Shown: positions 3,945 through 23,395 of the stretch, piece after piece
Position numbering within the stretch: the first letter of the stretch is position 1
Layout of the letters: each line of letters opens with the position of its first letter
Source: Methanomicrobiales archaeon HGW-Methanomicrobiales-3
GTDB lineage: Archaea > Halobacteriota > Methanomicrobia > Methanomicrobiales > Methanospirillaceae
DNA length: 64,000 nt
Direction of reading: 5' to 3'
NCBI GenBank assembly: GCA_002839605.1
Contig: PGYK01000004.1
Location: 62,001 to 126,000 of the forward strand
Made by a program: the position numbers and the translations under genes
The notes under the pieces: generated by a model
Database searches by the model: none
The model's input: the letters and a program-made list of their open reading frames with translations, nothing else
What the model was told of the DNA's origin: nothing

Positions 3945-5093
3945 ATGAAAACTCTTCCAATCTTTGCTTTTTTCGTAATCCTACTCCTTTTATTTTCCGG
4001 GTGTAGTGCCCCATCAAAAGATACAACGCTTACTCCTACAACACCGATACCTTCACAACTTGAAATCCCGGTACCTGTCAGCACAACAATCCCCATTACA
4101 CAGACCGTAACACAACCACCAACACTTGTTTCATCATCAGGAGAAATGATCGTGTCCTTCATTGATGTCGGGCAGGGCGATTCAGAGCTTATCCAATTCC
4201 CCTCTGGAAAAACTATGCTGATTGATGCCGGACCAACAAACGCCGGTTCGACAGTTGCGGATTACCTCAGGAGCCAGGGGATCTCAACAATTGATATGGT
4301 TGTGGCAACTCACCCTCATGAGGACCATATCGGGGGAATGTCAGAGGTCCTGAATGGATTCAGTGTGAAACAGTTCATCGATAGCGGATATCCGCATACT
4401 ACAAGCACCTTTGAGAATATGCTAAACCTCATCGATACGAAAAATATCCCGTTCCGGACGGTTTCAAAAGGGGATACGATTTCCCTGGATCCTGCCGTTT
4501 CTATCAGCGTACTAAACCCCCCTTCGACATTTTCCGATGACCTCAACGAAAACTCAGTAGTTCTTAAAATGACATACGGAAAAGTAACCTACCTTTTTAC
4601 AGGTGATGCAGGGGGGATATCGGATCACGCGGATATTCTAAAAGTGCCGCATCACGGCAGTAATACAGGGTCATCAACTCTCTTACAGATTGCCCCCTCT
4701 GTCAGTGTAATTGAAGTGGGTGCGGATAATTCATACGGTCATCCAACAGCAAAGGTTCTGCAACTATTGGAACAGGCAGGATCACAAGTCTATAGAACCG
4801 ATTTGAATGGACACGTTGTGATAACCTCTGATGGGAATACCTATTCAGTCAGCCAAACCAAAAACGCCCTGGCAACAACATCAAAAACGATATACCCGGT
4901 TACTACAACAGGTTCCAGTGTTGTGAGCGGAAATACTGCTTTCTGCGATTGTTCAAAAAATACCTATAACTGTCCTGATTTCCCCTTATCGGATGGGGCC
5001 GGTGCTCAGCAATGTTATGATTATTGCATATCGCAGGGAAAGGGAGATGTTCACGGTCTTGATCGTGACAAAGACGGCAGCGCATGTGAATGA
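3945..5093 (+). CDS. Secreted ComEC-like metallo-beta-lactamase-fold lipoprotein with excalibur-like C-terminus
   Basis: The signal peptide ends in the lipobox FSGC (Cys20), followed by a Thr/Pro-rich spacer to about residue 65. A metallo-beta-lactamase-fold domain of the ComEC/Rec2 C-terminal type follows. Its signatures are FIDVGQGDSELIQFPSGK, LIDAGP, the metal motif THPHEDHIGG (about residues 122-131), LFTGDAGG and VPHHGSNTGSS. Free-standing proteins of this type are usually exported hydrolases, possibly nucleases or phosphodiesterases. The last 50 residues contain four cysteines and end in DRDKDGSACE, the calcium-binding excalibur-like motif. The substrate is not predictable. The DUF3006 gene follows seven bases later, the common partner of such enzymes. 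Confidence 0.85.
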   Translation: MKTLPIFAFFVILLLLFSGCSAPSKDTTLTPTTPIPSQLEIPVPVSTTIPITQTVTQPPTLVSSSGEMIVSFIDVGQGDSELIQFPSGKTMLIDAGPTNAGSTVADYLRSQGISTIDMVVATHPHEDHIGGMSEVLNGFSVKQFIDSGYPHTTSTFENMLNLIDTKNIPFRTVSKGDTISLDPAVSISVLNPPSTFSDDLNENSVVLKMTYGKVTYLFTGDAGGISDHADILKVPHHGSNTGSSTLLQIAPSVSVIEVGADNSYGHPTAKVLQLLEQAGSQVYRTDLNGHVVITSDGNTYSVSQTKNALATTSKTIYPVTTTGSSVVSGNTAFCDCSKNTYNCPDFPLSDGAGAQQCYDYCISQGKGDVHGLDRDKDGSACE

Positions 5094-5520: not shown

Positions 5521-6552
5521 TTATGTTTCGGAATTTCCCGAGACAGGGACACAAATGAATTGAATGGGTTTTCGCGAAGTCTGATGCGTCAAATCCCCTT
5601 CGATAACAAAATATTTTATTAGAGTCTTTGTCTTATCAAAATCGTAAAGTCGATAAAGATAATATTTTTCTGCATTTTCTTGAGAACAAGTGAATTCGGT
5701 CTCGGAGAGGATGAATGGTTCGGATTTTCCGCTCGTTGTGGTTTTCACTTCAATATATTTTATTTTCCCGTCAGGTGTGACCGATTGAATGTCGTATCCT
5801 AACCCATCTCCCTGGGTTTTTGCAACATGTTCAATTCTCTCGATCATGCTGGGAGCATTCGCTTTTCGGAGAATTGCTTTTTCAATCTCGATCACCGCAA
5901 GTTCGCCCGCGTCTCCGATAACAGTATTCTTTTGATTTTTAGTAATATAATCCGTTTTTCTTCCAACAAATTTCTTCGGCTTCGAATTACTGGCAATTGG
6001 TTCGCAATCTGGTGATTCTGTTTGAAGATAGGATATTGAATTATCCGAGCTCTTCAGGAGGGAAAAATTATCCGGGATTAATTCAAGCTCATGATTAGGA
6101 TCATCATCCGAAGAGGTTTCTGAATATGATTCACTATTGAATTCAACCTCATATTCATTTGCAATATTCTTTTTCAAAAATTTTAGAGTGGGAGTGTCGC
6201 TTGTTTTTTTGCCATTTCGGTTAAAATACTCAACCCATTCGGGAAATTTTGTTTGTATCAGCTTTTGAAAATCGCTTTTCCACAACAATCGGGTTCTTGG
6301 ATTATTCTCATTAAGCATCTCGAAATGAGCAACAAAACTTTTTGTTCTAAAAGACAAGGCGATTTGTCTTTTATCGCCGACACTCAAAGAGTCAATATCA
6401 AAAAATGAGCGAATCTCAATGGGAATTCCTGTTCCGTGATGTAGGAAAGAGGATTTGTCCATTTGTTTAACGGCAATGAGATTGGATAGGATTTTCCAAG
6501 AATAGAATTCGTATTCAAATACCGGGTCGGCTCTCTTTTTCGGCACAACCAA
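5521..6552 (-). CDS. DUF3883-domain protein, divergent from the NurA-HerA operon
   Basis: The C-terminal 130 residues show the DUF3883 pattern: GDAGELAVIEIEKAILRK, GDGLGYDIQSVTPDGKIKYI, EVKTTTSG and an NAEKYYLYRLYDFD segment. The GYDI...IEVKTT core resembles PD-(D/E)xK nuclease folds, and the domain is frequent in restriction and defence loci. The N-terminal part is unassigned. The start is a problem. TTG at 6552 is the first recognised start, but the same frame continues upstream to 6648 with protein-like sequence (RIEVALRFQF, ANKYLTEKQF) and no ATG, GTG or TTG. Either a rare start (ATT at 6627, 11 bases after GGAG) or a 5' frameshift is likely. It faces the operon beginning at 6835. Confidence 0.75.
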   Translation of the reverse strand: MVVPKKRADPVFEYEFYSWKILSNLIAVKQMDKSSFLHHGTGIPIEIRSFFDIDSLSVGDKRQIALSFRTKSFVAHFEMLNENNPRTRLLWKSDFQKLIQTKFPEWVEYFNRNGKKTSDTPTLKFLKKNIANEYEVEFNSESYSETSSDDDPNHELELIPDNFSLLKSSDNSISYLQTESPDCEPIASNSKPKKFVGRKTDYITKNQKNTVIGDAGELAVIEIEKAILRKANAPSMIERIEHVAKTQGDGLGYDIQSVTPDGKIKYIEVKTTTSGKSEPFILSETEFTCSQENAEKYYLYRLYDFDKTKTLIKYFVIEGDLTHQTSRKPIQFICVPVSGNSET

Positions 6553-6834
6553 AAATTGTTTTTCCGTGAGATATTTGTTTGCAGCGGTTTCCCTTCCAGA
6601 GAATTGAAATCGAAGCGCAACTTCAATTCTGACTTCTTCTCCATAGTTTTATCGAATCGTGCTGGAAAGATTGATGCCCGGATAGAATAAACTGAAAATA
6701 ATGTCTCGCCTTGAATTTGCCTTTGCTCTTTTCGGTATGGTACTGGCGAGCTTCTGGCCGTTGAGCTTCTTGACGCAGGTTAGTGGACGTCTGGACTGTG
6801 TAATTTTGTGTGATAGCAGAAGAGTGCGGATAGT

Positions 6835-8022
6835 ATGATTGAGGCAATCGGTAAACCCAAAGATAACAAAGTCATGAATATCTTAGCCGAAGTAACTGGC
6901 GGGAAGAGTTACAAGGCACACAAATATGCTCTTGACCACTCGGAACGGCCTTCGGTAGATTATGGCCCGAGTGAGATTGTTTGGAGACGAAGAGCGGAGA
7001 CTTCCCCACAAAAAAACTACATAGATTTATCAAACAGATGTAAGAAGCTCGCCAGTCAGGATGATCAGATCCTGAGCTATTTCTTGGACGGTTCGCGCAG
7101 GGTTTTTAAAGTTGATGATATGGCTTATTCACAATCGGGTAATCGAAGTGTGATTTATCCCGTAGTAGCCGGGCAGATAGGAGTTGGATGTTGCCGTCGT
7201 GTTGACAAAAAGATGATTCCTGCCCGGTTCAAGCGCGAGTTTGTATTATCCATGCCTGATGTGGCAGACGCAGACGGAAAATCAGGATTTTGGCCAGCGA
7301 CAGTAAAAAAACTTAATGAATGTGACGAATTAAAAAGACTCGGAATGGTGTTCTCATCAATTCTTCCATATAAAACATCTAAAAATGATGATAAAAAATA
7401 CGAGGATCGAGCCACCGCAGCTATCCAAGATAGAATGATTGATCGTGAGAAAGAATTAGTAGCGGAACTCGTCCGCGAGGGCATGTTGGATCAGGACAAC
7501 TATTTAGTTAAGGATGGATCTTTGGAATATCGTCCAACTAAGGAAGATAAATCCGACAAGAAAAAATATCAGACCTTCAAGAACAACTACAACTGGGTTA
7601 TTGGGGCCTCAAAAAATTTTAATCCGGAGGTTTGTATGGATGCTAATGGCCATCCAAATCCCGGATTTATTGCAGAGTTGCCACTTTACCATCGCACACC
7701 TGTTGCTGAATATGAGAACGATATGCTTGGGGACATCAAATTTGCAGTATGGTATATCAGATTACGGGATAAAAACCGGACCCGAACTCCATTCGATGGT
7801 ATTCTTAAAGTGGAAAAAATTCTCGTAACAGAGGAAGAGAATGAACGCGGTATCGAGAGCGATCTCGTGGATACATTGAGCGCTTATCTTATGAATGAAA
7901 GGAATCCTGTTTGCTATGGATCAGATCTCCGTTGGGCGAATCACCTATACCCGATTTATCTGACAGAGTCATTTGTTAAGTCTCGGTATTTGAGTACGGA
8001 AAGTTTTCTACATTTGTTCTAA
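6835..8022 (+). CDS. NurA-like nuclease, first gene of a four-gene system
   Basis: The 395-residue product has the NurA pattern: a first acidic motif LDGSRRVF (Asp85), a second motif VKDGSLEYR (Asp227), VIGASKNF (Lys260), and a C-terminal WANHLYPIYLTES. NurA proteins are 5'-3' exonucleases/endonucleases that work with the hexameric HerA translocase in archaeal DNA-end processing. This copy is longer and more divergent than housekeeping NurA, with a charged insert at about residues 180-250. The next gene is HerA-like and begins 12 bases after the stop, supporting the pairing. Composition is AT-rich, unlike the core genome. The start at 6835 has only a weak GGA motif. Activity is inferred from motifs and context. 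Confidence 0.75.
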   Translation: MIEAIGKPKDNKVMNILAEVTGGKSYKAHKYALDHSERPSVDYGPSEIVWRRRAETSPQKNYIDLSNRCKKLASQDDQILSYFLDGSRRVFKVDDMAYSQSGNRSVIYPVVAGQIGVGCCRRVDKKMIPARFKREFVLSMPDVADADGKSGFWPATVKKLNECDELKRLGMVFSSILPYKTSKNDDKKYEDRATAAIQDRMIDREKELVAELVREGMLDQDNYLVKDGSLEYRPTKEDKSDKKKYQTFKNNYNWVIGASKNFNPEVCMDANGHPNPGFIAELPLYHRTPVAEYENDMLGDIKFAVWYIRLRDKNRTRTPFDGILKVEKILVTEEENERGIESDLVDTLSAYLMNERNPVCYGSDLRWANHLYPIYLTESFVKSRYLSTESFLHLF

Positions 8023-8033
8023 AGGGGGGTAAC

Positions 8034-9731
8034 ATGAGTAACAACAAGAGTAAATTAATTGGACGAATTTTGGCAACGGAAAAAAATCCTACTACTATTG
8101 ACGAATTCAATTTTTGGACGAATTCGGACTTGAAACTCAGTGCTTTTGATATTGTCAAGGTTGAGCACATCGATGGGTCTTATACTTTCGGTGTGATCGA
8201 GAACATTTCTCATATTACGGATGCCCAGAGTTTTTTGACCAACTTCATATCCAGTGATTTCGGCGATGTAAATATTGATGAACCGACGTTGCGAGTCGGC
8301 ATGAACTATGCTAAAGCCAAAGTTTCCTTTAACAATGACAATCTGTACACCCCGGTACATAATAATGCTAAGGTGTATCTTGCCACTGCAGAAGAAATCA
8401 CGCAGGCCTTAGGCCTTGATAGGATACAAAATCCGCTGGTTTGCGGGTCCTTAAAAATGTATGAGGGGACTTCAATGGAGGTAATACTTCCGGTACACTT
8501 GAACTCAAAATTTATCCTAGGGCCGGAAGGTGCGCATCTAAATATTTCTGGCATTTCTGGTCTCGCGGCGAAGACATCATATGCGATGTTTCTCATGAAG
8601 GCAATCCAGGATCGATACCAGAAAGACGATATGAGTGACAGCGTAGCCTTCGTTATCTTCAATGTAAAGGGCAAGGACCTTATGGCGATTGATAGGCCGA
8701 ATGATTTTTCGTCCGACATCCAGGGTGAAAAAGAGAAAACTTTTACGGAGTACGAGGCATTGGGTTTGTCTACTGCGCCCTTTAAAAATGTAAAATATTT
8801 CATTCCCTACACCGATACAAAATCCGCCAAACAGAGCACATATTTGACAAGGGAAGAAATCAAGGACAATATTGACGCCGGTCAGCTGAAGAAGTTCAAA
8901 TACATCTATTCGGATGATAAAGAGAACATCGAAATGATGTTTGCAGACATCGATGACCCAACCCAAACTATGGAATCAATAATTAGCAAAATCATAGACA
9001 AAGAGGATATTGATTTCGGCGGCCTTTCAACGTGGAAAGACTTTATTGACAAAGTCACAGAAAAAGCCCAAAAAGGCTCCGCCGGGGATAAGGGAGATAT
9101 TTCCGTTTTGAGTTGGCGAAAATTTAAACGTGTAATTCGCAAGGCCCTTCAGGATGAGATGTTTGCATACAGGGTTAATGGTCGGGAGGCGGAATGTCGC
9201 TTAGCTGATGAATTGAAGAAAATCAGAAAGAATGAGGTATTTGTAGTCGACATTGCCAAATTACCCGAAGACAAACAAGCATTTGTCTTTGGTGACGCAG
9301 TGCGCACGATTTATAATTTGAAGCTCGGAGAGTATGATGCCGAGTCGAAAGTGGATCCTCCATCCAGAATCATCATTTTCATTGATGAACTTAACAAATA
9401 CGCTTCAAAAGATGTCCCAAAGACTTCACCGATTCTGCGCGAAATATTGGATGTGACCGAACGTGGTCGGTCATTGGGCGTTGTTCTCTTTGCTGCTGAA
9501 CAATTCCGCTCTGCTATCCATGCCCGTGTAACTGGCAACTGTGCCACGCACGCCTATGGAAGAACAAACTCCATCGAAACGTCGGCTAAGGATTATAGCA
9601 GCCTTCCGAACACTTACAAAAACATGTTGACGCGGTTGGAACAGGGAGATTATCTAGTTCAGAATCCTATCTTCCGATCTATCTTAAAAATAAATTTCCC
9701 GAAACCGATCTACAAGCAGTTCAAACAATGA
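8034..9731 (+). CDS. HerA-like AAA+/FtsK-fold ATPase with altered P-loop
   Basis: An N-terminal HAS-barrel-like region (SAFDIVKVEHIDGSYTFGVI, about residues 36-56) is followed by the ATPase domain. The P-loop is GISGLAAKTS (residues 173-182), with Ala where the canonical motif has Gly before Lys-Thr. The Walker B strand is RIIIFIDELNKYA. Further motifs typical of HerA include VIFNVKGKDL and the ERGRSLGVVLFAAEQ block (here TERGRSLG). HerA forms hexameric rings that pump DNA into NurA. A strong GGGG Shine-Dalgarno precedes the ATG at 8034. The GHKL ATPase gene starts 11 bases after the stop. Whether the changed P-loop still hydrolyses ATP cannot be judged from sequence. Confidence 0.8.
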   Translation: MSNNKSKLIGRILATEKNPTTIDEFNFWTNSDLKLSAFDIVKVEHIDGSYTFGVIENISHITDAQSFLTNFISSDFGDVNIDEPTLRVGMNYAKAKVSFNNDNLYTPVHNNAKVYLATAEEITQALGLDRIQNPLVCGSLKMYEGTSMEVILPVHLNSKFILGPEGAHLNISGISGLAAKTSYAMFLMKAIQDRYQKDDMSDSVAFVIFNVKGKDLMAIDRPNDFSSDIQGEKEKTFTEYEALGLSTAPFKNVKYFIPYTDTKSAKQSTYLTREEIKDNIDAGQLKKFKYIYSDDKENIEMMFADIDDPTQTMESIISKIIDKEDIDFGGLSTWKDFIDKVTEKAQKGSAGDKGDISVLSWRKFKRVIRKALQDEMFAYRVNGREAECRLADELKKIRKNEVFVVDIAKLPEDKQAFVFGDAVRTIYNLKLGEYDAESKVDPPSRIIIFIDELNKYASKDVPKTSPILREILDVTERGRSLGVVLFAAEQFRSAIHARVTGNCATHAYGRTNSIETSAKDYSSLPNTYKNMLTRLEQGDYLVQNPIFRSILKINFPKPIYKQFKQ

Positions 9732-9742
9732 TGTGATGCACC

Positions 9743-11278
9743 ATGGACGAATTTATTTTCGGGGCAAATATTTTAGAAAACCTTACGACAGGAATGTATC
9801 AGGACTCTAAAGTAATCTATCGTGAGTACATCCAAAACTCTTGTGATCAAATTGATAAGGCTGTAAGAGATGGAATCCTAAAACAAAATGAAGGCTTTAT
9901 CAAAATATGGTTAGACCACGAAAAACGCAACATCACCATCGAAGATAACGCCACAGGCATTCCCGAAGCGGAGTTTAAACGCACTCTTGGAAATATTGCC
10001 GACTCCGACAAGAAGATCGGCGAAGACAAAGGTTTCCGGGGCATTGGAAGATTGTGTGGTTTGGCTTATTGCAAAGAGCTTATTATCACGTCATCCTTTA
10101 ATGAGGAGGGAATAGTTTCAATTTTAAAGTGCGATGCGAAGAAAATGCGTAGACTCATTGATGAGCACGCGCGTGGCATGAAACATACAGCAAACGATGT
10201 ACTTCAGGCAATATACCAATTTGAGCAGAAAAAAGAAAAAAATTCTGCCTCACATTTCTTTAAAGTAGAACTTATCGATATTAATCCCGAAAATACTGAC
10301 CTTCTCGACTTTCAGCAGGTTAAAGATTATCTCTCTTTTGTTGCTCCTGCTCCCTATCAGAGCAGCTTCCATTATCGTTCAAAAATTTATAATCACGCGA
10401 AAGAATTAGGCACCAAAATAGATGAGTATAATATCACTCTCGACGGCGAACAAATTTTTAAAAAATATACAACCATATTGAAGGATCCTAACGGTGAAAC
10501 ATACGACGATATCTCTGATGTAGAGCTCAAGGATTTTAAGAATGAAAACGGTGAGCTATTAGCATGGATGTGGGTCGGCGTTTGCTCTTTTAAAAAATCC
10601 ATTCCGCCGAAAAACAATCCGATGCGTGGCCTGCGGCTGCGAAAAGAGAATATCCAAATAGATGGAGAGGATTCACTCCAAAACCTCTTTAAAGAACCTC
10701 GCGGAAACGGCTATTTTATTGGTGAAGTTTTTGCAATAGATAAAGAGTTAATCCCTAATTCGCAGCGCGATTATTTCAATGAAAACAAAGCACGGAACGA
10801 TTTGGAGCGTGAGCTTAAAAAATATTTTAACGAAGATCTTCAAAAAATTTATAACGTCGGATCTGAGGTTAATAGCGCTTATAATAAAATTGAAACATTT
10901 GAGAGAAAAAATGCTGAGTTCAAAACAAAAGAAATTAATAAATCTTTTTTAGATGATACTCACCGAAAACGCGAGTTAAAAAATGTTCAAGAATCAAAAG
11001 AAAAAGCTGATGCTGCCCAGGAAACCATCAAAAAAGCTAAAGAGAAAGCCGGCATTTTAGCTCAAAAAGTAATTTCTAAAATAGAGGCTGAACGACCTCT
11101 GTCAGTTGCCAAACCGGTATTCCATCCTTTAAACGCAAAATCTCACGAAAATAGAAAATTTTCTAAATATAGTCAAAATGAACGTAAGATTATTTCAAAA
11201 ATATTCAGTATTATTTCAACAGTAGCTGATCCGGAAACGGCCGAACTAATCATCAAAAAAATCGAGGATAAACTCTAA
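9743..11278 (+). CDS. Hsp90/MORC-like GHKL ATPase
   Basis: The N-terminal Bergerat-fold ATPase shows all the expected boxes: YREYIQNSCDQID (Glu28, Asn32), EDNATGIP (Asp68, Gly72) and GEDKGFRGIGRLCGL (residues 93-106). A central region (about 230-370) contains NSQRDYFNEN near residue 350, as in Hsp90/MutL-type middle domains. The C-terminal third is Lys/Glu-rich and probably coiled coil (KEKADAAQETIKKAKEKAG). GHKL ATPases of this kind act as ATP-gated clamps, and bacterial MORC-like forms are known from restriction-type loci. The stop codon overlaps the start of the radical SAM gene by one base. Partner and substrate are unknown. Confidence 0.8.
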   Translation: MDEFIFGANILENLTTGMYQDSKVIYREYIQNSCDQIDKAVRDGILKQNEGFIKIWLDHEKRNITIEDNATGIPEAEFKRTLGNIADSDKKIGEDKGFRGIGRLCGLAYCKELIITSSFNEEGIVSILKCDAKKMRRLIDEHARGMKHTANDVLQAIYQFEQKKEKNSASHFFKVELIDINPENTDLLDFQQVKDYLSFVAPAPYQSSFHYRSKIYNHAKELGTKIDEYNITLDGEQIFKKYTTILKDPNGETYDDISDVELKDFKNENGELLAWMWVGVCSFKKSIPPKNNPMRGLRLRKENIQIDGEDSLQNLFKEPRGNGYFIGEVFAIDKELIPNSQRDYFNENKARNDLERELKKYFNEDLQKIYNVGSEVNSAYNKIETFERKNAEFKTKEINKSFLDDTHRKRELKNVQESKEKADAAQETIKKAKEKAGILAQKVISKIEAERPLSVAKPVFHPLNAKSHENRKFSKYSQNERKIISKIFSIISTVADPETAELIIKKIEDKL

Positions 11279-13092
11279 TGGGCCGAAAAATTCTCTTAAT
11301 AGAGCCGAATTATCGAAATAAATATCCTCCGATGGGCCTTATGAAGCTGGCGACATATTATCGCAAGCGAGGGGATGATGTACGCTTCTTTAAAGGTGAT
11401 CTAAAGTTTTTCGCAGCTCAATTATTATGTGAAGAATTTCTTTCTGAGGTGAATGAACCCAGATTGGGAAAACACGTACCTAAACTCATTGAGCATATAA
11501 AGACAGGAAAGTATGCTCCACTAGATGCGCTTCCGGACTTCAGGAAAAGCGCACAAGAGACACTTCTAAAAGAATATCGCCTTCGATATCTGGAGGGTGA
11601 TTTCCCTCAATTCGATATTATTCACATCACTACTCTTTTTACCTTTTATTGGCGCGAAACAATCGATACCATTAACTTTGCAAAAAAGTTCCGTTCAAAC
11701 TCTGGCAGAATAATTGTTGGTGGAATAGCTTCAACCATTCTTCATGAGCGAGTTTTTCAAGAAACCGGAATTGATCCTATCTGTGGGCTATTAGACAAAC
11801 CTGGGATGCTGGATGCCGATAGTGCTGACATTATCGACGAAATGCCTTTAGATTACTCCATTTTAGAAGAAATTGATTATCAATATCCGGCAAATAACGC
11901 CTATTTTGCTTATACGACGCGAGGCTGCCCCAGGAAATGCTCCTTTTGCGCCGTTCCTCGTTTAGAGCCAGAATATATTGATTATATAAATTTGGCAGAG
12001 CAAATCAAGCAAGCTACTTCGCGATTTGGTCCGCAAAGGGATTTGCTTCTAATGGACAATAATATTTTAGCTTCCAAACACTTCGATAAAATTATTAATG
12101 AGATTAAAAAATGTGGGTTTGAGCGTGGTGCTATGCATACTCCCGTAGACGATTATGACATAGCAATGAAAAACATACGCTCTGACTATAATGTGAGAGC
12201 GTATACAAGAAAAATCATCAGACTTTACGATAACATTTCTGACAAACTTCCTGAATCTGAACAAGCAGATTTTTATATAAAACGTGAAGAACAGAATCTT
12301 CTTTATGCCGAAGTGGCGAGTCCTGAAGCAATAATAAGGTTCGATAACATAGCTCGGCCACTCTATGAGAAATATATCCAACGGACCAAGCGCCCGTCAA
12401 TGCGTATTATTGATTTTAATCAGGGCGTGGATGCTCGTTTCGTGACTGACAAGAAAATGAAAAAATTGGCGGAGGTCAACATTCGTCCGCTGCGTATCGC
12501 ATTTGACCATATTTCAATGAAAGACAAATATGAGTCTGCAATCCGAATGGCTGCCAAGAATGGTATAACCCACTTATCCAACTATTTACTCTATAATTTC
12601 AATGACAAGCCAGAAGAGCTGTACTATCGGATGAAACTCAACGTCGATTTGTGTGACGAACTTGATGTGAAAATTTTTTCTTTCCCAATGAAATATCACC
12701 CGATTGACGATCCAGATTTCTTTTATAATCGGGAATATACTGGAGAGCATTGGAATCGAAAATTTATTCGAGCGATTCAAGCGGTTCTTAACGCTACAAA
12801 AGGAAAAATAGGTCGCGGAAAATCATTCTTCGAGGAGGCTTTTGGAAAAGATGTTGACGGATATTATAAGATTTTATGGATGCCGGAAGCGTTTATCATT
12901 CATCGTTTTAAATACAAAGAAAATCTGACTGCGGATTGGTGGAATCAATATAACAAACTTGATGAAATACAGCGAAATCAATTGCATGAGATAGTGGCTA
13001 AAAATCAATTTGAGGAAAAAAACATTACGGGAGACCTTGCCATTGACAGTGTGCTAAAATATTATTATGTCAAACGCGATAGACCGTCATAG
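11278..13092 (+). CDS. Radical SAM protein with B12-binding-like N-terminus
   Basis: The first 160 residues resemble a cobalamin-binding-type Rossmann domain (KILLIEPNYRNKYPPMGLMK; FDIIHITTLF; GRIIVGGIAS), but the classical cobalamin DxHxxG motif is not evident. The radical SAM core has TTRGCPRKCSFCAVPRLE, giving Cys217, Cys221 and Cys224 as ligands of the [4Fe-4S] cluster. Later segments (FNQGVDARFVTD; AFDHISMKDKY; SNYLLYNFNDKPEELYYRM) continue the barrel. The 604-residue length exceeds a minimal radical SAM enzyme. Overlap with the GHKL gene makes it part of the operon. Its reaction is unknown; it could make or modify a small molecule, nucleic acid or protein used by the system. Confidence 0.85.
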   Translation: MGRKILLIEPNYRNKYPPMGLMKLATYYRKRGDDVRFFKGDLKFFAAQLLCEEFLSEVNEPRLGKHVPKLIEHIKTGKYAPLDALPDFRKSAQETLLKEYRLRYLEGDFPQFDIIHITTLFTFYWRETIDTINFAKKFRSNSGRIIVGGIASTILHERVFQETGIDPICGLLDKPGMLDADSADIIDEMPLDYSILEEIDYQYPANNAYFAYTTRGCPRKCSFCAVPRLEPEYIDYINLAEQIKQATSRFGPQRDLLLMDNNILASKHFDKIINEIKKCGFERGAMHTPVDDYDIAMKNIRSDYNVRAYTRKIIRLYDNISDKLPESEQADFYIKREEQNLLYAEVASPEAIIRFDNIARPLYEKYIQRTKRPSMRIIDFNQGVDARFVTDKKMKKLAEVNIRPLRIAFDHISMKDKYESAIRMAAKNGITHLSNYLLYNFNDKPEELYYRMKLNVDLCDELDVKIFSFPMKYHPIDDPDFFYNREYTGEHWNRKFIRAIQAVLNATKGKIGRGKSFFEEAFGKDVDGYYKILWMPEAFIIHRFKYKENLTADWWNQYNKLDEIQRNQLHEIVAKNQFEEKNITGDLAIDSVLKYYYVKRDRPS

Positions 13093-13202: not shown

Positions 13203-16200
13203 TCACACAATCCCACTCTCCTCCGCCTCCTTCCTCAGTCCTCTTCCGTAACAATGCTCGCAGAGCTTCACACCCGCATCGCGGTCGTGCCAAACAGCCT
13301 TCGCAACCCCGCAGACCGAGCACTTCCCCACATCCGCCGTCACGCGGCTGCACCGGGAAACATCCACGGCCCCGGGCAGCGGGACCGACGCGGTCTGCTC
13401 ATCTTTCACCGCTTCGTTGTAACATGACCGGCAGATCCGCCGTGCCTGCTGCTTATCCTTTGGCCGGGCTCGCCGCTCTGCAGTGAGTTTCTCCACATAC
13501 CAGGAGCCCTTCTTCCCGCAGGACCCGCAGGGGGTCTTCGGCTCCGGTACCTCGAGTTTTTTGTAGTCCTTTGCCCGGACAGGCCGGGGCGGCCCCTTGT
13601 TTTCAGCACAAGGTTCTGTTTTCAGCACGTTTTCAGCATCTTTCGTACGGCTGCTGAAAGAGCCCGGGGCCCGATCTGCATCTCTTTTGCCTGATTGGGC
13701 GGTTCCGGGCGGAGATCGTTTTTCGTTTTCAGCAGATCGCAAATTATGCAGACACTGAGTGGAATTCGTTTCAGGTTCCGGGCCACCTCCATAATTCCGG
13801 TTTTGCTGAAAACATCCTTTTCTTAGTACAGAATTATTTGTACAATCACCTTCTTTGCTGGAACCGGGAACGCTGGAAGTTCCGTTTTCATTTTCAGCAG
13901 TTGCTGAAAAACTGCTGAAACCTGCTGAAACTGCTGAAAGATGAGATGAATCATCGTCATCGTTCTTCGGGTTGTGGTCGAGCCAGCACGCCCCCCCGTT
14001 CATCCACTGCCGGTAGAGCTCCCGGTCCCATTCGAACGCCTCGGTCCTGCGCCGGACCGAATACCCGCTCTCCTCAGTCAGCGTCACGGTCCGATCCGTG
14101 AACGAAATTGCCGGGCACTTTTCCAGCAGCCCGGTATAATTCTTCCCCCGGCTGTCGTAGCCTTTGATCATCCGGTAGATGCTCAGGTAGGATCCTCCGG
14201 TCAGCCGCTGCAGGTCCTGGATAGTGAATTCCCTCAGGTCCGCCTTCTCGATGATGGCGAGCAGGTCGGACTCTTTCTTGGTCATCTTCGATTCCTGCCC
14301 GCCCGCAGTCCCGTTCAGGAGCGTGAAGACCTCGGTCGCTGCGGTGAAATCCGCCTCGTCTGCATACACGCAGAGCGTCCCATCACTGCCGGTCTTCTGC
14401 CGGCGCTGCCGGAAGAAGAGGGCCGCATGGCTCTTGATCAGGTCGTAAAGCATGTCGGGGTTGCGCCGGTTGCTGATCCTCTGGAACCGTATTCGCCGCG
14501 AATAGGGAATGATAACCCAGATCATCTGCTCGTGCAGGACCTCCCAGATCTCCCGGCAGAGTACCAGCTCGGAGGATTCATCGGTGAAGGTGTCGGGGTC
14601 CTGCTCCTCTTTCTCCTGCTTCGCTGCCAGCACCCGGGCGTCCTGCTCGGTCGATTCGTCAATCCAGCAGGTCAGCATCCGGTTCATCACCTGATCGTCA
14701 CCGGTCCCTTCCTTCTTCGCGATCCACCAGACGCACCGCTCGGGAATCGTGCAGACCCGGGATGTGAGGTCTTTTGTGACCGTCGTGTGCGTAATCGGCT
14801 CGTGGAAGTTCGAGGTCGCGGACTTCAGGATTTCCTGAATGCCGTCCGATAGCTCGGTGTCGTCGCTCATCAGGACCGTGCGCGGCTGGAGGTCCTTCAT
14901 GTAATAGAGCGCCTTGTTGCTCACCGTGCCTTTCACCTTGTACCGGTCCGGCACCTGGCGCATCATCTTGCGGAAGGCGTGGGTCTTGCCCTTGCCGGAA
15001 TCGCCGGTCACCGAGACGTGCAACCCATCAGAGTTCTTCACGGCCTGCGATGCCATCGAGAGGATCATGCACCGGGCAAGGATCTCGTCGCCGACATGCT
15101 CCTCGGCGAATGCCGCGAGCATCAGGGCTGCAGGATTGCCGTGTTCCAGCACATCGAGCGCAGCGGCCCGGATATCGGGGTTTGCCGGGACCGGGGCCGG
15201 GCCCTCAGTCCCTTCGTTCTCAGCTTTGGCCTTTGCCCGGTCCTTTCGCCAGGTCTTCTGTTTCTGCTCCCAGTCCTTCCGCTTCGTGGCCCGGTCCGGT
15301 TCGTACCGCTCGCGGAGTTCCTGCCACCGCTGAGTACCGCCGCCGCAGGAGGTGTGCTTGCACCCGGCAAAGACTGCACCGTTGCCGAACTGGATCGCAA
15401 AGGCCCCGTCCTTGTGGGCCGATGAGAACGGGCATTGGTGGAGGATGAAGAGTGTCCCGCCGCTGTACGGTTTCTCTGACCGGATGTTAACACTGTTAAC
15501 AATCAGCCAGCGGCGCAGGTCAAAGCCCTTGTCCTTCGCCGTTGCCGGCTGTGCCTGGGCGTGCTGCTCGGTCGGGAGCCGGGCCACGAGGTCCCTGAGC
15601 TGATCGATCGTTGCGACGCTCAGCTCATCCGGGGCTGATAGCATCCGGCTCCGCCGGTGCGGGCGCTCGGGCGTGTTGTCGCCCTTCCGCGAGACCGTGC
15701 CGTAGAGTTTCCAGATGCGGGCCGCGTTGAAGTTCGCCGTGTCCACGGTCACCCGCTCATCCGAGAAGAGCGTGTCGAGCGTGGCAAGACAGCTCTTCAC
15801 CAGCGCCGTTGCCGCTTCATCGTTCGGCAGATCGATGCGGTAGAGCAGATGGGCCCCGTTGCCGGAGTCCGCCCGGACTGGGTCTGGAAATCCGAGCCCG
15901 ATGAGCCACCGGGCAATCTCCTCAGCTTTTGCCAGGGCCAGCCCGTGCTCCTCATCCGTGCTCGACACCCCGCTCGGTCGCAGCGGGTCGATGTCGACCG
16001 GCAGCCAGCGGCGGCGCAGGATATCCGCGTCGCTCGTCGTGCTGTCTTTCTTGCCAAGCCGCATCTTGATCCGGTTCGCCCGGCGCGAGAGCAGGGCCGG
16101 GTTCACCTCGTTCAGCGTGACGTAGATGCCATGTACTGAGTTGTCGGCATCGAGCGGCTCCACTGCCCGCACAAGCGCAGCGGAATCATTGAAGTAGCCG

Positions 16201-16292
16201 CTGTGGGTGAATTGGTCGGTGAGCGCCCGGACCTCGATGACCTGCCCGGGCCCGGCTATTCGGGCAATTGTATCACGGAGCAGTCCATCCAC
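13203..16292 (-). CDS. Primase-helicase replication protein of an integrated element
   Basis: The N-terminal part has an archaeo-eukaryotic primase-like acidic motif VDIDPLRP (Asp100, Asp102) and SGNGAHLLYRID near residue 143. Cysteine/histidine residues at about 290-340 (HQCPFSSAHKD, CKHTSCGG) may bind zinc. A P-loop ATPase domain carries GDSGKGKTHA (about residue 428), LMSDDTEL and a conserved arginine-rich region. It is probably a superfamily 3-type helicase. After residue 790 comes a long low-complexity linker, then CxxC zinc motifs (CGSCGKKG, CRSCYNE, CSVCGV, CEHCYG). This architecture fits plasmid or virus replication proteins. The linker DNA holds the repeats listed at 13601-13939. It ends a minus-strand operon that starts near 18123. 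Confidence 0.8.
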   Translation of the reverse strand: MDGLLRDTIARIAGPGQVIEVRALTDQFTHSGYFNDSAALVRAVEPLDADNSVHGIYVTLNEVNPALLSRRANRIKMRLGKKDSTTSDADILRRRWLPVDIDPLRPSGVSSTDEEHGLALAKAEEIARWLIGLGFPDPVRADSGNGAHLLYRIDLPNDEAATALVKSCLATLDTLFSDERVTVDTANFNAARIWKLYGTVSRKGDNTPERPHRRSRMLSAPDELSVATIDQLRDLVARLPTEQHAQAQPATAKDKGFDLRRWLIVNSVNIRSEKPYSGGTLFILHQCPFSSAHKDGAFAIQFGNGAVFAGCKHTSCGGGTQRWQELRERYEPDRATKRKDWEQKQKTWRKDRAKAKAENEGTEGPAPVPANPDIRAAALDVLEHGNPAALMLAAFAEEHVGDEILARCMILSMASQAVKNSDGLHVSVTGDSGKGKTHAFRKMMRQVPDRYKVKGTVSNKALYYMKDLQPRTVLMSDDTELSDGIQEILKSATSNFHEPITHTTVTKDLTSRVCTIPERCVWWIAKKEGTGDDQVMNRMLTCWIDESTEQDARVLAAKQEKEEQDPDTFTDESSELVLCREIWEVLHEQMIWVIIPYSRRIRFQRISNRRNPDMLYDLIKSHAALFFRQRRQKTGSDGTLCVYADEADFTAATEVFTLLNGTAGGQESKMTKKESDLLAIIEKADLREFTIQDLQRLTGGSYLSIYRMIKGYDSRGKNYTGLLEKCPAISFTDRTVTLTEESGYSVRRRTEAFEWDRELYRQWMNGGACWLDHNPKNDDDDSSHLSAVSAGFSSFSATAENENGTSSVPGSSKEGDCTNNSVLRKGCFQQNRNYGGGPEPETNSTQCLHNLRSAENEKRSPPGTAQSGKRDADRAPGSFSSRTKDAENVLKTEPCAENKGPPRPVRAKDYKKLEVPEPKTPCGSCGKKGSWYVEKLTAERRARPKDKQQARRICRSCYNEAVKDEQTASVPLPGAVDVSRCSRVTADVGKCSVCGVAKAVWHDRDAGVKLCEHCYGRGLRKEAEESGIV
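13601..13939. repeat. Iteron-like array of TTTCAGCA / TGCTGAAA
   Basis: Eleven copies of the octamer are seen. TTTCAGCA starts at 13601, 13620, 13631, 13727 and 13892. TGCTGAAA starts at 13652, 13804, 13902, 13913, 13923 and 13932. Five copies between 13892 and 13939 are spaced 10, 11, 10 and 9 bases apart, close to one DNA turn. The array lies inside the low-complexity linker of the replication gene, where protein constraint is weak. I infer a binding array for the element's Rep protein and a possible origin. Confidence 0.6.
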
Positions 16293-22014: not shown

Positions 22015-23247
22015 TTACAGTTCCCCTTTCCTTTTCATCTCCGCGATCCGTTCATCGATAAGCTGCCGCAGGATATCCGGGTTATCCCGAAGGACGCTCT
22101 GCTGAATCCCCTCATCCGTATCGATCACAACATCGGAAAGCCGCTGGCCGCACGAGAAACAGTAGTTCGAGATGGGCGGGTTGATCTTCCGGCAGTGCGG
22201 GCACTGGACCGGCTCCAGCCGTGTCGTAGCGTTGTCATTGTCCGTGACACTGATGCCGTAGGATTCGAGCATCGCAGAGTCGATGTCCTGACCGGTGAGA
22301 TGGGCATAGGTTCGGAACATATCGGTGCTGATGTTGCCCCACATCATGAGTTTGATCACGCTCTCCGGGACCTTCTCCTTGATGAGGTGCGTTATCCGGC
22401 TGTGGCGGAAGACATGCGGCGTGATGTGTTTGCGGATTCCGGCATCCTTCGCAATGCACTTGAGCCGCTTGTTGATGGTCGCATGGATGAGGGGCTTGCC
22501 GCGTTCGTTCACGAAGACCAGCCGTTCCCCGTTCGGGTCCGGTTTGTAGCAGGCCCGCCACTGTGCCAGGTATTCCCGGGCCATGATGAGCCGGACGTAC
22601 CGGGGCATGTTGGTCTTGAAGTTCACGTTCGCGATGATGCCGTATTTATCGAACGTTAGATCGCCCCAGGTCATTGTCCCGATCTCGCCAATCCGGAACC
22701 CGCCTTCGTAGAGCATCATGATGAGTGCCCGGTCCATGGTCCGGGTGCACGCCTTCACCATCGCGGTAATTTCGTCCGGTGTCAGCAGGTCGGCGGCCAC
22801 CTTCGTCATGGTGTCCTTGGGCGGCGTCCGGAGTTTGTGGATCTTGCTTTCGGTGAGCGGGGAATATTTGTTCTCGATCATCCAGAGGTAGAACTGCTTG
22901 AGGATGGCGATGAAATCGCTGATGGTGTTCTGTTTGAATGGCTTCTCCCGGCTGCTCTTTGCATTTCTCAGCTCAGGGATTGCAGCGTAAAGATCGCCAA
23001 TGGTATTGTCGGCAAACGGCCCGATGAACCGGCGCCAGGAGATCAGCGTGAAGGTGAGCTTATTCGCCCGCCCTGCGCTGATGTTCTTGCAGGACCGGAG
23101 TTCTGCAATGAATTCCCGGATCTGGGCGGCATCGACCGTCGTGATAGTAAAGTCCTGAAGGGCGGCCTTGATTGCGTTTTCTGCCAGATCTGTCCTGACA
23201 GGATGAAAAGAGCTGCTCGTAAGCAACTGAGCGACTGGGTAAGTCAT
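22015..23247 (-). CDS. Tyrosine recombinase / integrase with C-terminal zinc ribbon
   Basis: The 410-residue product has an N-terminal SAM-like DNA-binding region and the catalytic domain of phage-type integrases. Catalytic residues visible are Arg in EGGFRIGEIGTMTWGD, the HxxR box HVFRHSRITHLI, and the nucleophile region YAHLTGQDID. The C-terminus adds a four-cysteine zinc ribbon (CPHCRKINPP...YCFSCGQRL). The start lies 64 bases from the 3' end of the tRNA-Leu gene, the usual arrangement for an element integrated in a tRNA. I infer it mobilises the island to its left. A matching left attachment site was not seen in the window. Confidence 0.9.
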   Translation of the reverse strand: MTYPVAQLLTSSSFHPVRTDLAENAIKAALQDFTITTVDAAQIREFIAELRSCKNISAGRANKLTFTLISWRRFIGPFADNTIGDLYAAIPELRNAKSSREKPFKQNTISDFIAILKQFYLWMIENKYSPLTESKIHKLRTPPKDTMTKVAADLLTPDEITAMVKACTRTMDRALIMMLYEGGFRIGEIGTMTWGDLTFDKYGIIANVNFKTNMPRYVRLIMAREYLAQWRACYKPDPNGERLVFVNERGKPLIHATINKRLKCIAKDAGIRKHITPHVFRHSRITHLIKEKVPESVIKLMMWGNISTDMFRTYAHLTGQDIDSAMLESYGISVTDNDNATTRLEPVQCPHCRKINPPISNYCFSCGQRLSDVVIDTDEGIQQSVLRDNPDILRQLIDERIAEMKRKGEL

Positions 23248-23310
23248 AGAAAAGTGTCTGATTGAAGCGGTTTAAAAAGAAGACTGAACGATTCTAACTT
23301 CGCATCCAGA

Positions 23311-23395
23311 TGCGAGGGATGGGATTCGAACCCAAGAACTCCTGCGAGACCAGGCCCTGAACCTGGCGCCGTTGACCTGGCTTGGCTACCCTCGC
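23311..23395 (-). tRNA. tRNA-Leu (anticodon CAG)
   Basis: Read on the minus strand the gene starts GCGAGGGTAGCCAAGC and ends in the T-arm GGGTTCGAATCCC and acceptor strand CCCTCGC with discriminator A. The anticodon stem CCAGG/CCTGG encloses the loop TTCAGGG, giving CAG. A long variable arm is typical of leucine tRNA. The 3' CCA is not encoded. The gene is the probable integration target of the adjacent recombinase. Confidence 0.92.

Follow-up and report, generated by a model that had tools for sequence, protein, structure and literature searches.

A probable replication origin of phased iterons inside the replication gene of a putative archaeal integrative element

The replication gene of a putative archaeal integrative element contains, in the DNA coding for a protein linker, an array of short repeated sequences that is probably the replication origin of the element, read by the winged helix of the protein that the gene itself encodes. 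The case is made from sequences and predicted structures of the gene and its relatives, and we hold it with good confidence. The best reading is that the array would work like the in-gene origins of the pSK41 RepA_N plasmids and of phage lambda, with an unrelated protein. Few replication origins of archaeal integrative elements are known. The window, by which we mean the whole 64-kb stretch of DNA analysed, contains the array and its copies at the following positions.

13601..13939, no strand assigned: iteron array, 11 exact copies plus one TTCCAGCA-type copy at 13856–13863
13601..13608, plus strand: iteron copy
13620..13627, plus strand: iteron copy
13631..13638, plus strand: iteron copy
13652..13659, minus strand: iteron copy
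13727..13734, plus strand: iteron copy
13804..13811, minus strand: iteron copy
13892..13899, plus strand: iteron copy, facing the copy at 13902..13909 (TTTTCAGCA-GT-TGCTGAAAA)
13902..13909, minus strand: iteron copy
13913..13920, minus strand: iteron copy
13923..13930, minus strand: iteron copy
13932..13939, minus strand: iteron copy

Word counts on both strands place the 11 exact copies of TTTCAGCA/TGCTGAAA between 13601 and 13939, all within the minus-strand gene at 13203–16292. The whole window has 14 copies of TTTCAGCA on both strands, 11 of these in the array, and when the entire window is shuffled the count per 64 kb averages 2.47 and never exceeds 6, from which about 0.01 would be expected in 339 bases; the original prediction that eleven octamers in 340 bases lie beyond chance is therefore borne out, and its spacings of 10, 11, 10 and 9 bases and of 19, 11 and 21 bases are exact on recount. 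The octamer count across the genome that had been suggested as a check gives 54 occurrences of TTTTCAGCA in 2.59 Mb, 7 of them within the array. When codons are shuffled synonymously with the amino acids kept, the best 8-mer cluster has at most 4 members, against the 11 observed. A peptide repeat was considered as the source of the array and ruled out, because the copies are spread over both strands and fall in every one of the three reading frames.

The gene encodes a protein of 1029 amino acids whose parts are as follows.

13203..16292, minus strand: replication gene, 1029 aa (ORF and translation; 72 homologs; AlphaFold2)
aa ~1–240 of the replication protein: AEP-like primase (conserved motifs)
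aa 241–362 of the replication protein: Cys/His module
14304..15206, minus strand: MCM-like AAA+ ATPase, aa 363–663 (fold match; Walker A GDSGKGKTH)
13998..14303, minus strand: winged helix-turn-helix, aa 664–765 (predicted structure; weak PDB matches)
14118..14198, minus strand: recognition helix and following strands, aa 699–725, the segment covarying with the iteron word
13593..13967, minus strand: disordered linker hosting the array, aa 776–900 (pLDDT under 50)
13206..13538, minus strand: C-terminal zinc domain, aa 919–1029 (conserved cysteines)

The AlphaFold2 model, built from a 72-sequence alignment, has a mean pLDDT of 79.8, falling below 50 across the linker (residues 776–900), and the array spans codons 785–898. 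The linker had been described as lying between the ATPase and the zinc domain; the zinc domain does flank it on one side, but on the other a winged helix (aa ~664–765) intervenes after the ATPase. Among the 72 homologs, G430 and S432–K436 of the Walker A motif are invariant, and the zinc-domain cysteines at 922, 925, 954, 957, 991, 994, 1011 and 1014 are invariant or nearly so. Residues 363–733 of the predicted model align to MCM ATPases (VIA-align Z 22.5, 3.2 Å rmsd over 286 residues, 7plo_4), and the best chains extend into the MCM winged helix. Because the fold matches but no MCM sequence family is detected, either in Pfam up to E 1 or as a PDB sequence match up to E 1, we call the ATPase MCM-like rather than MCM. 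Folded alone, the winged helix is predicted to have helices at 672–684, 691–698 and 702–710 followed by wing strands, and it matches winged helices in the PDB weakly (best E 0.009). The AEP motifs hhhDhD, sxH and hD, as defined in the available sections of PMC5862659, are present: D100, D102 and H148 (GAH) are invariant and D184, which we read as motif III, is nearly so. The Pfam scan of the replication protein gives no primase match, and none to the RepA_N domain PF06970 up to E 1.

An indication that the repeats act as DNA comes from twelve relatives of about 80% identity, six of which have TTTCAGCA and six TTACAGCA at aligned sites. The change from TTTCAGCA to TTACAGCA affects nearly every copy and leaves the flanking DNA unchanged: each of the first six genes has T as the third base in 10 or 11 copies, and each of the others has A there in 7 to 10 copies, with at most 3 exceptions per gene in either group. 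The other seven iteron bases are 96.9% identical at all codon positions, compared with 74% for the rest of the linker, and in the same comparison third codon positions in the ATPase region are 74% identical. A 16-bp AT-rich core (13823–13838) is invariant in the 12 relatives, third codon positions included. Selection thus acts on the DNA, and the copies seem all to be recognised by a single reader. The word is also matched by a change in the protein, in that the helix sequences SYLS or SYSC go with TTTCAGCA and SYMG with TTACAGCA.

Which part of the protein changes with the word can be asked within these twelve relatives and across a broader set. In the twelve, the residues outside the linker and its edges that separate TTTCAGCA genes from TTACAGCA genes are 703–704 (LS or SC versus MG), 754, 756 and 759; residues 359 and 393 separate the groups as well, although they vary within groups and fall in gapped columns, and no zinc-domain residue does so. 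Across 55 non-redundant genes, word distance was compared with protein distance in 15-residue windows, controlling for whole-protein distance, and the highest partial correlations are those of windows 701–715 (r 0.49), 706–720 (0.50) and 711–725 (0.45). The permutation maximum over all windows is 0.31, and none of 2000 permutations, which were made without a tree, reaches the helix value. The next window, 959–973 in the zinc domain, has a partial r of 0.29, and the best single column is 702. When genes from the rest of the order are pooled (n = 68), residues 699–725 retain a partial r of 0.35 (0 of 1000 permutations, again without a tree), with 0.13 for 726–765, 0.18 and 0.12 for two zinc segments, and about 0 for the primase and ATPase. 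In 32 disjoint nearest pairs, word distance correlates with helix distance at 0.88 and with whole-protein distance at 0.80, so that much of the raw trend is due to common ancestry and the argument depends on the partial tests. In the 69 homologs whose arrays fall short of significance, prediction of the weak top motif from the nearest helix reaches a mean percentile of 0.70; the same test gives 0.68 for primase plus ATPase and 0.61 for the zinc domain, which is above chance and not specific to the helix.

The winged helix adjoins the linker, and joint recombination of the two could thus mimic covariation; this partial alternative is made less likely by residues 726–765, which are nearer to the linker and covary less (0.13) than 699–725. 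The zinc domain, which the original prediction had named as the reader of the array, was also considered as the main reader and is not the first choice: the winged-helix signal is about twice as strong, no zinc residue separates the word groups, and the residual zinc correlations are partial r 0.12–0.29. Across some 70 relatives, the word appears to change together with the part of the protein that is predicted to read it.

Homologs of the replication gene are widespread, the named relatives belonging to Methanoregula and other Methanomicrobiales. They are present in 85 of 108 genomes of the same family and, at the level of the order, in 159 of 232 genomes and 32 of 40 genera, often with several per genome. 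A repeat search that presupposes no word finds linker arrays in 61 of 105 homologs from the same family, that of Methanoregula and its allies, and in 13 of the 38 that come from elsewhere in the order, with a median array of 342 bp and 11 copies; none of 105 equal-length stretches from the ATPase region reaches the array score. The nulls are 10 to 20 shuffles per gene, which makes single-gene significance coarse and the count of control segments the better yardstick. The family set comprises 105 of 111 loci (L002 was left out, as were L009, L016, L017, L020 and L099 with linkers too short), and its 61 significant arrays become 55 after a coverage filter and removal of near-duplicates. The order-level set was reduced from 42 loci to 38 (L224 and L239 gave no usable match, and L200 and L208 no landmark) and may count one genome twice (L196 and L233). 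Pooling gives 74 significant arrays, of which 68 were kept and 66 of these entered the AT profile. The words are specific to clades, and include TTTCAGCA, TTACAGCA, TTGCAGCA, TTGCTGCA, TCCTTCAGCA, TCCTTCCGCA, CACTTCAACA, TGACAGCA, TGGCAGCA, TTAGCGGAA and others. They are not strict exclusion groups, because co-resident elements sometimes have one word in common (in genomes G071, G037 and G047).

The array is not found in every homolog. Where the linker is at least 130 aa long, 58 of 88 family homologs have a significant array and 30 do not, and among closed genes with a shorter linker an array is present in 2 of 13 and none is significant in the other 11. An in-gene origin is therefore not universal. 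A linker without repeats, which the original prediction had named as evidence against itself, does occur in those 30 of 88, several of which nevertheless have, in degenerate form, the word that their helix would predict; some of the array-negative homologs may have decayed arrays or use another site. Outside the gene, repeat clusters were sought at 28 loci with array-negative linkers and are notable only in L074, where four copies of GGGTGTGAC lie downstream of the gene (4267–4482 in gene sense), representing either a moved origin or an unrelated repeat.

Several individual homologs show further variation. Long linkers, of about 320 and 270 aa, are seen in L232 (genome G184) and L234 (G183), which belong to a different family within the order, and each contains 16 or more TGACAGCA-type copies. 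In L003, the close relative from G071, the matched reading is interrupted by an in-frame TAG, yet the array still has ten exact copies. A second gene in the same genome as the window (L002, on G000:C7) has only the primase part in common (64% identity over aa 12–371), and in it a different C-terminus and no repeat cluster are seen.

Beyond the word itself, the arrays share a layout resembling that of an origin. The feature in the window is:

13822..13847, no strand assigned: AT-rich non-iteron core, candidate unwinding element

The 40-base stretch with the highest AT content in the gene falls within the array in 63 of 68 genes, where 7.9 would be expected, and mostly about one third of the way into it. 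The three outermost copies on one side are opposed to the three on the other in 24 of the 68 genes, against 2.1 expected for random orientation, and in none of the 68 do all six outer copies point one way. The helical phasing that had been proposed from the window holds in the pooled arrays, where neighbours in the same orientation cluster at 9–11, 19–21 and 30 bp, or about one, two and three helical turns, the motif finder forbidding copies more closely spaced than the cluster seen. Taken as a whole, the layout resembles phased initiator sites on either side of an unwinding element, arranged for two opposed loads.

The gene lies in a provisional element with features that suggest integration into a tRNA gene, as follows.

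22015..23247, minus strand: tyrosine recombinase (integrase; PF00589, E 9.4e-27; phrog_1 integrase)
23311..23395, minus strand: tRNA-Leu(CAG), integration target
23309..23326, no strand assigned: candidate attachment site, 18 bp of the tRNA-Leu 3′ end

The recombinase adjoins the tRNA-Leu gene, and the 18-bp tRNA end recurs 41.8 kb leftward, outside the window. In genome G061 the flank of the left repeat directly abuts a tRNA-Leu, beyond which the same acyl-CoA-synthetase-like region is matched, as would be the case for an empty site. The left border is provisional, since the 41.8-kb interval also holds metabolic genes. This provisional element includes a second copy of deoxyhypusine synthase (L112:5030–6079; another is on contig C16) and, just inside the candidate left attachment site, an ArdC-like anti-restriction protein with a polyvalent metallopeptidase domain (L112:2935–3846). 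An AT-rich cargo block at 5521–13092 (about 40% GC, compared with about 60% around the replication gene) encodes a protein with a NO VEIN C-terminal domain, a mad8-like ATPase, a GHKL-type ATPase and a radical SAM protein, and is possibly a defence island. The element proteins scanned, which represent part of its ORFs, include no partition gene.

We envisage that the winged helix behind the MCM-like ATPase reads 8–10-bp iterons in its own gene, and that in-phase copies on two inward-facing arms would bring the ATPase together above the AT-rich core. Strand opening would follow at this core, two helicase rings would load, and the fused primase would start synthesis of the excised element. The linker would be dispensable as protein; it is predicted to be disordered and is free in sequence, and this would allow the gene to carry an origin. 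The earlier proposal of a Rep-bound origin within the gene is well supported by the position, copy number, orientation, conserved AT-rich core, DNA constraint and helix covariation, all of them sequence features, with binding and initiation themselves still putative. A further step, which we offer as a tentative possibility at somewhat under even chances, is that this primase-helicase is a one-protein starter that, through an MCM-type winged helix, recognises iterons in its own gene while the arms place two rings head to head, and that the many helix–word pairs across the Methanomicrobiales constitute a natural recognition code in which all the iterons of an element move with two or three helix residues.

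Other explanations would account for parts of these data. The winged helix might bind the array for autoregulation or copy-number control, by roadblock or handcuffing, rather than at a start site; this rests on the same covariation with the recognition helix, and iterons in other plasmids also serve control. However, the AT-rich core inside the array (63 of 68 genes) and the inward-facing dyad arms are the anatomy of an origin, and a position about 2.4 kb downstream of the start codon is odd for a repressor site, so we regard a purely regulatory array as unlikely. That it is the C-terminal zinc domain which reads the array, be it an origin or a control site, would be in keeping with the residual covariation there (aa 959–973 at 0.29, zinc segments at 0.18 and 0.12) but is less probable again, given a winged-helix signal about twice as large and the lack of a zinc residue that separates TTTCAGCA from TTACAGCA genes.

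Clustered, phased repeats are typical of centromere sites too, and an integrase is present, but we think it very improbable that a partition (centromere-like) or excision/packaging site lies within the gene by chance: the part that covaries with the word belongs to the helicase-primase itself and not to a ParB-like protein or the integrase, and no partition gene is among those element proteins that were scanned. That the array is an accident of chance or composition is hardly credible. The linker has low complexity and a higher AT content than other parts of the gene, but synonymous shuffles reach 4 rather than 11, the copies occupy both strands and three frames, relatives have independent arrays with other words, and third codon positions are frozen.

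Tens of putative origin–initiator pairs, taken together, make origin recognition by an MCM-like helicase directly testable, and origins might be predictable from the sequence of the helix. An origin of this kind would also show that the notion of an initiator linker lodging an origin applies in archaea and in a fused primase-helicase.

Viral contigs give 51 loci; among the matches listed, the best segments are mostly at the primase end, one reaches residue 544, none reaches the winged helix, and no full-length relative is seen. Two phage records match, at the N-terminus only, and four plasmid records match, none covering 80%. In Methanothermobacter pMTBMA4 and the related pMTB1, the ATPase/winged-helix part of Rep matches weakly (24–25% identity), and three exact copies of GGGAAACACC lie inside rep behind the matched part (L253:1712–2048 in pMTBMA4, L254:2029–2365 in pMTB1). 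Their motif scores of 21 and 32 exceed those of the shuffles (7 and 6), but control stretches score as high as 13 and 18 and further repeats lie elsewhere in pMTBMA4, beyond rep, so we do not lean on these copies.

Comparison with known systems identifies counterparts for individual parts of this arrangement. In the pSK41-type RepA_N plasmids of Staphylococcus, the available text describes origin boxes in the centre of rep, within the DNA for a linker dispensable as protein, and a winged helix that reads the boxes, and in pPR9 the DNA-binding domain and origin were exchanged together (PMC5703833). The array described here, a putative origin, lies in linker-coding DNA as well (aa 785–898 of a linker at 776–900 with pLDDT under 50). 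The RepA_N proteins differ in being small bacterial initiators that lack primase and helicase domains like those of the present protein, and their winged helix is N-terminal whereas here it follows the ATPase, in a protein with no RepA_N Pfam match. Phage lambda has four 19-bp repeats bound by dimers of O, an initiator not known to have a helicase or primase of its own. Its origin lies within gene O, with the iterons next to a 40-bp AT-rich region, according to the available part of PMC5043065. The likeness is in iterons placed within the initiator gene beside an AT-rich stretch; unlike O, the putative initiator here carries its own MCM-like ATPase and AEP-like primase. ORF904 of Sulfolobus pRN1 is a primase-helicase, and like the present protein it is an archaeal, element-encoded replication protein. 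It has its own origin, as the present protein probably does. The pRN1 origin is described, in the text available, as a 100-nt stem-loop downstream of the gene (PMC4234260), whereas the array here is inside the gene.

SaPI Rep and SCCmec Cch/Cch2 are likewise element-encoded initiator helicases, with Cch MCM-like, and the C-terminal domain of Rep and Cch2 binds origin iterons, possibly as two hexamers (PMC7581432). Unlike the present case, their origin is just downstream of the gene and the SCCmec primase is a separate protein, and the available sections of PMC7581432 describe no origin-coded linker followed by a zinc domain. The PrimPol-PV1 supergroup and PrimQH combine a primase, a zinc-binding module, a P-loop ATPase (sometimes MCM) and a winged helix which, it was suggested, might recognise the origin (PMC5862659, as available in part). 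The replication protein has the same domain order, a likeness drawn from domains and motifs; it differs in the extra linker and zinc domain, and the sections of PMC5862659 available report no origin or iteron array. A search of the open-licence literature found no account of the array or its protein family. Traits that are known singly elsewhere are joined here in an unrelated archaeal family, to which the covarying pairs of helix and word are added.
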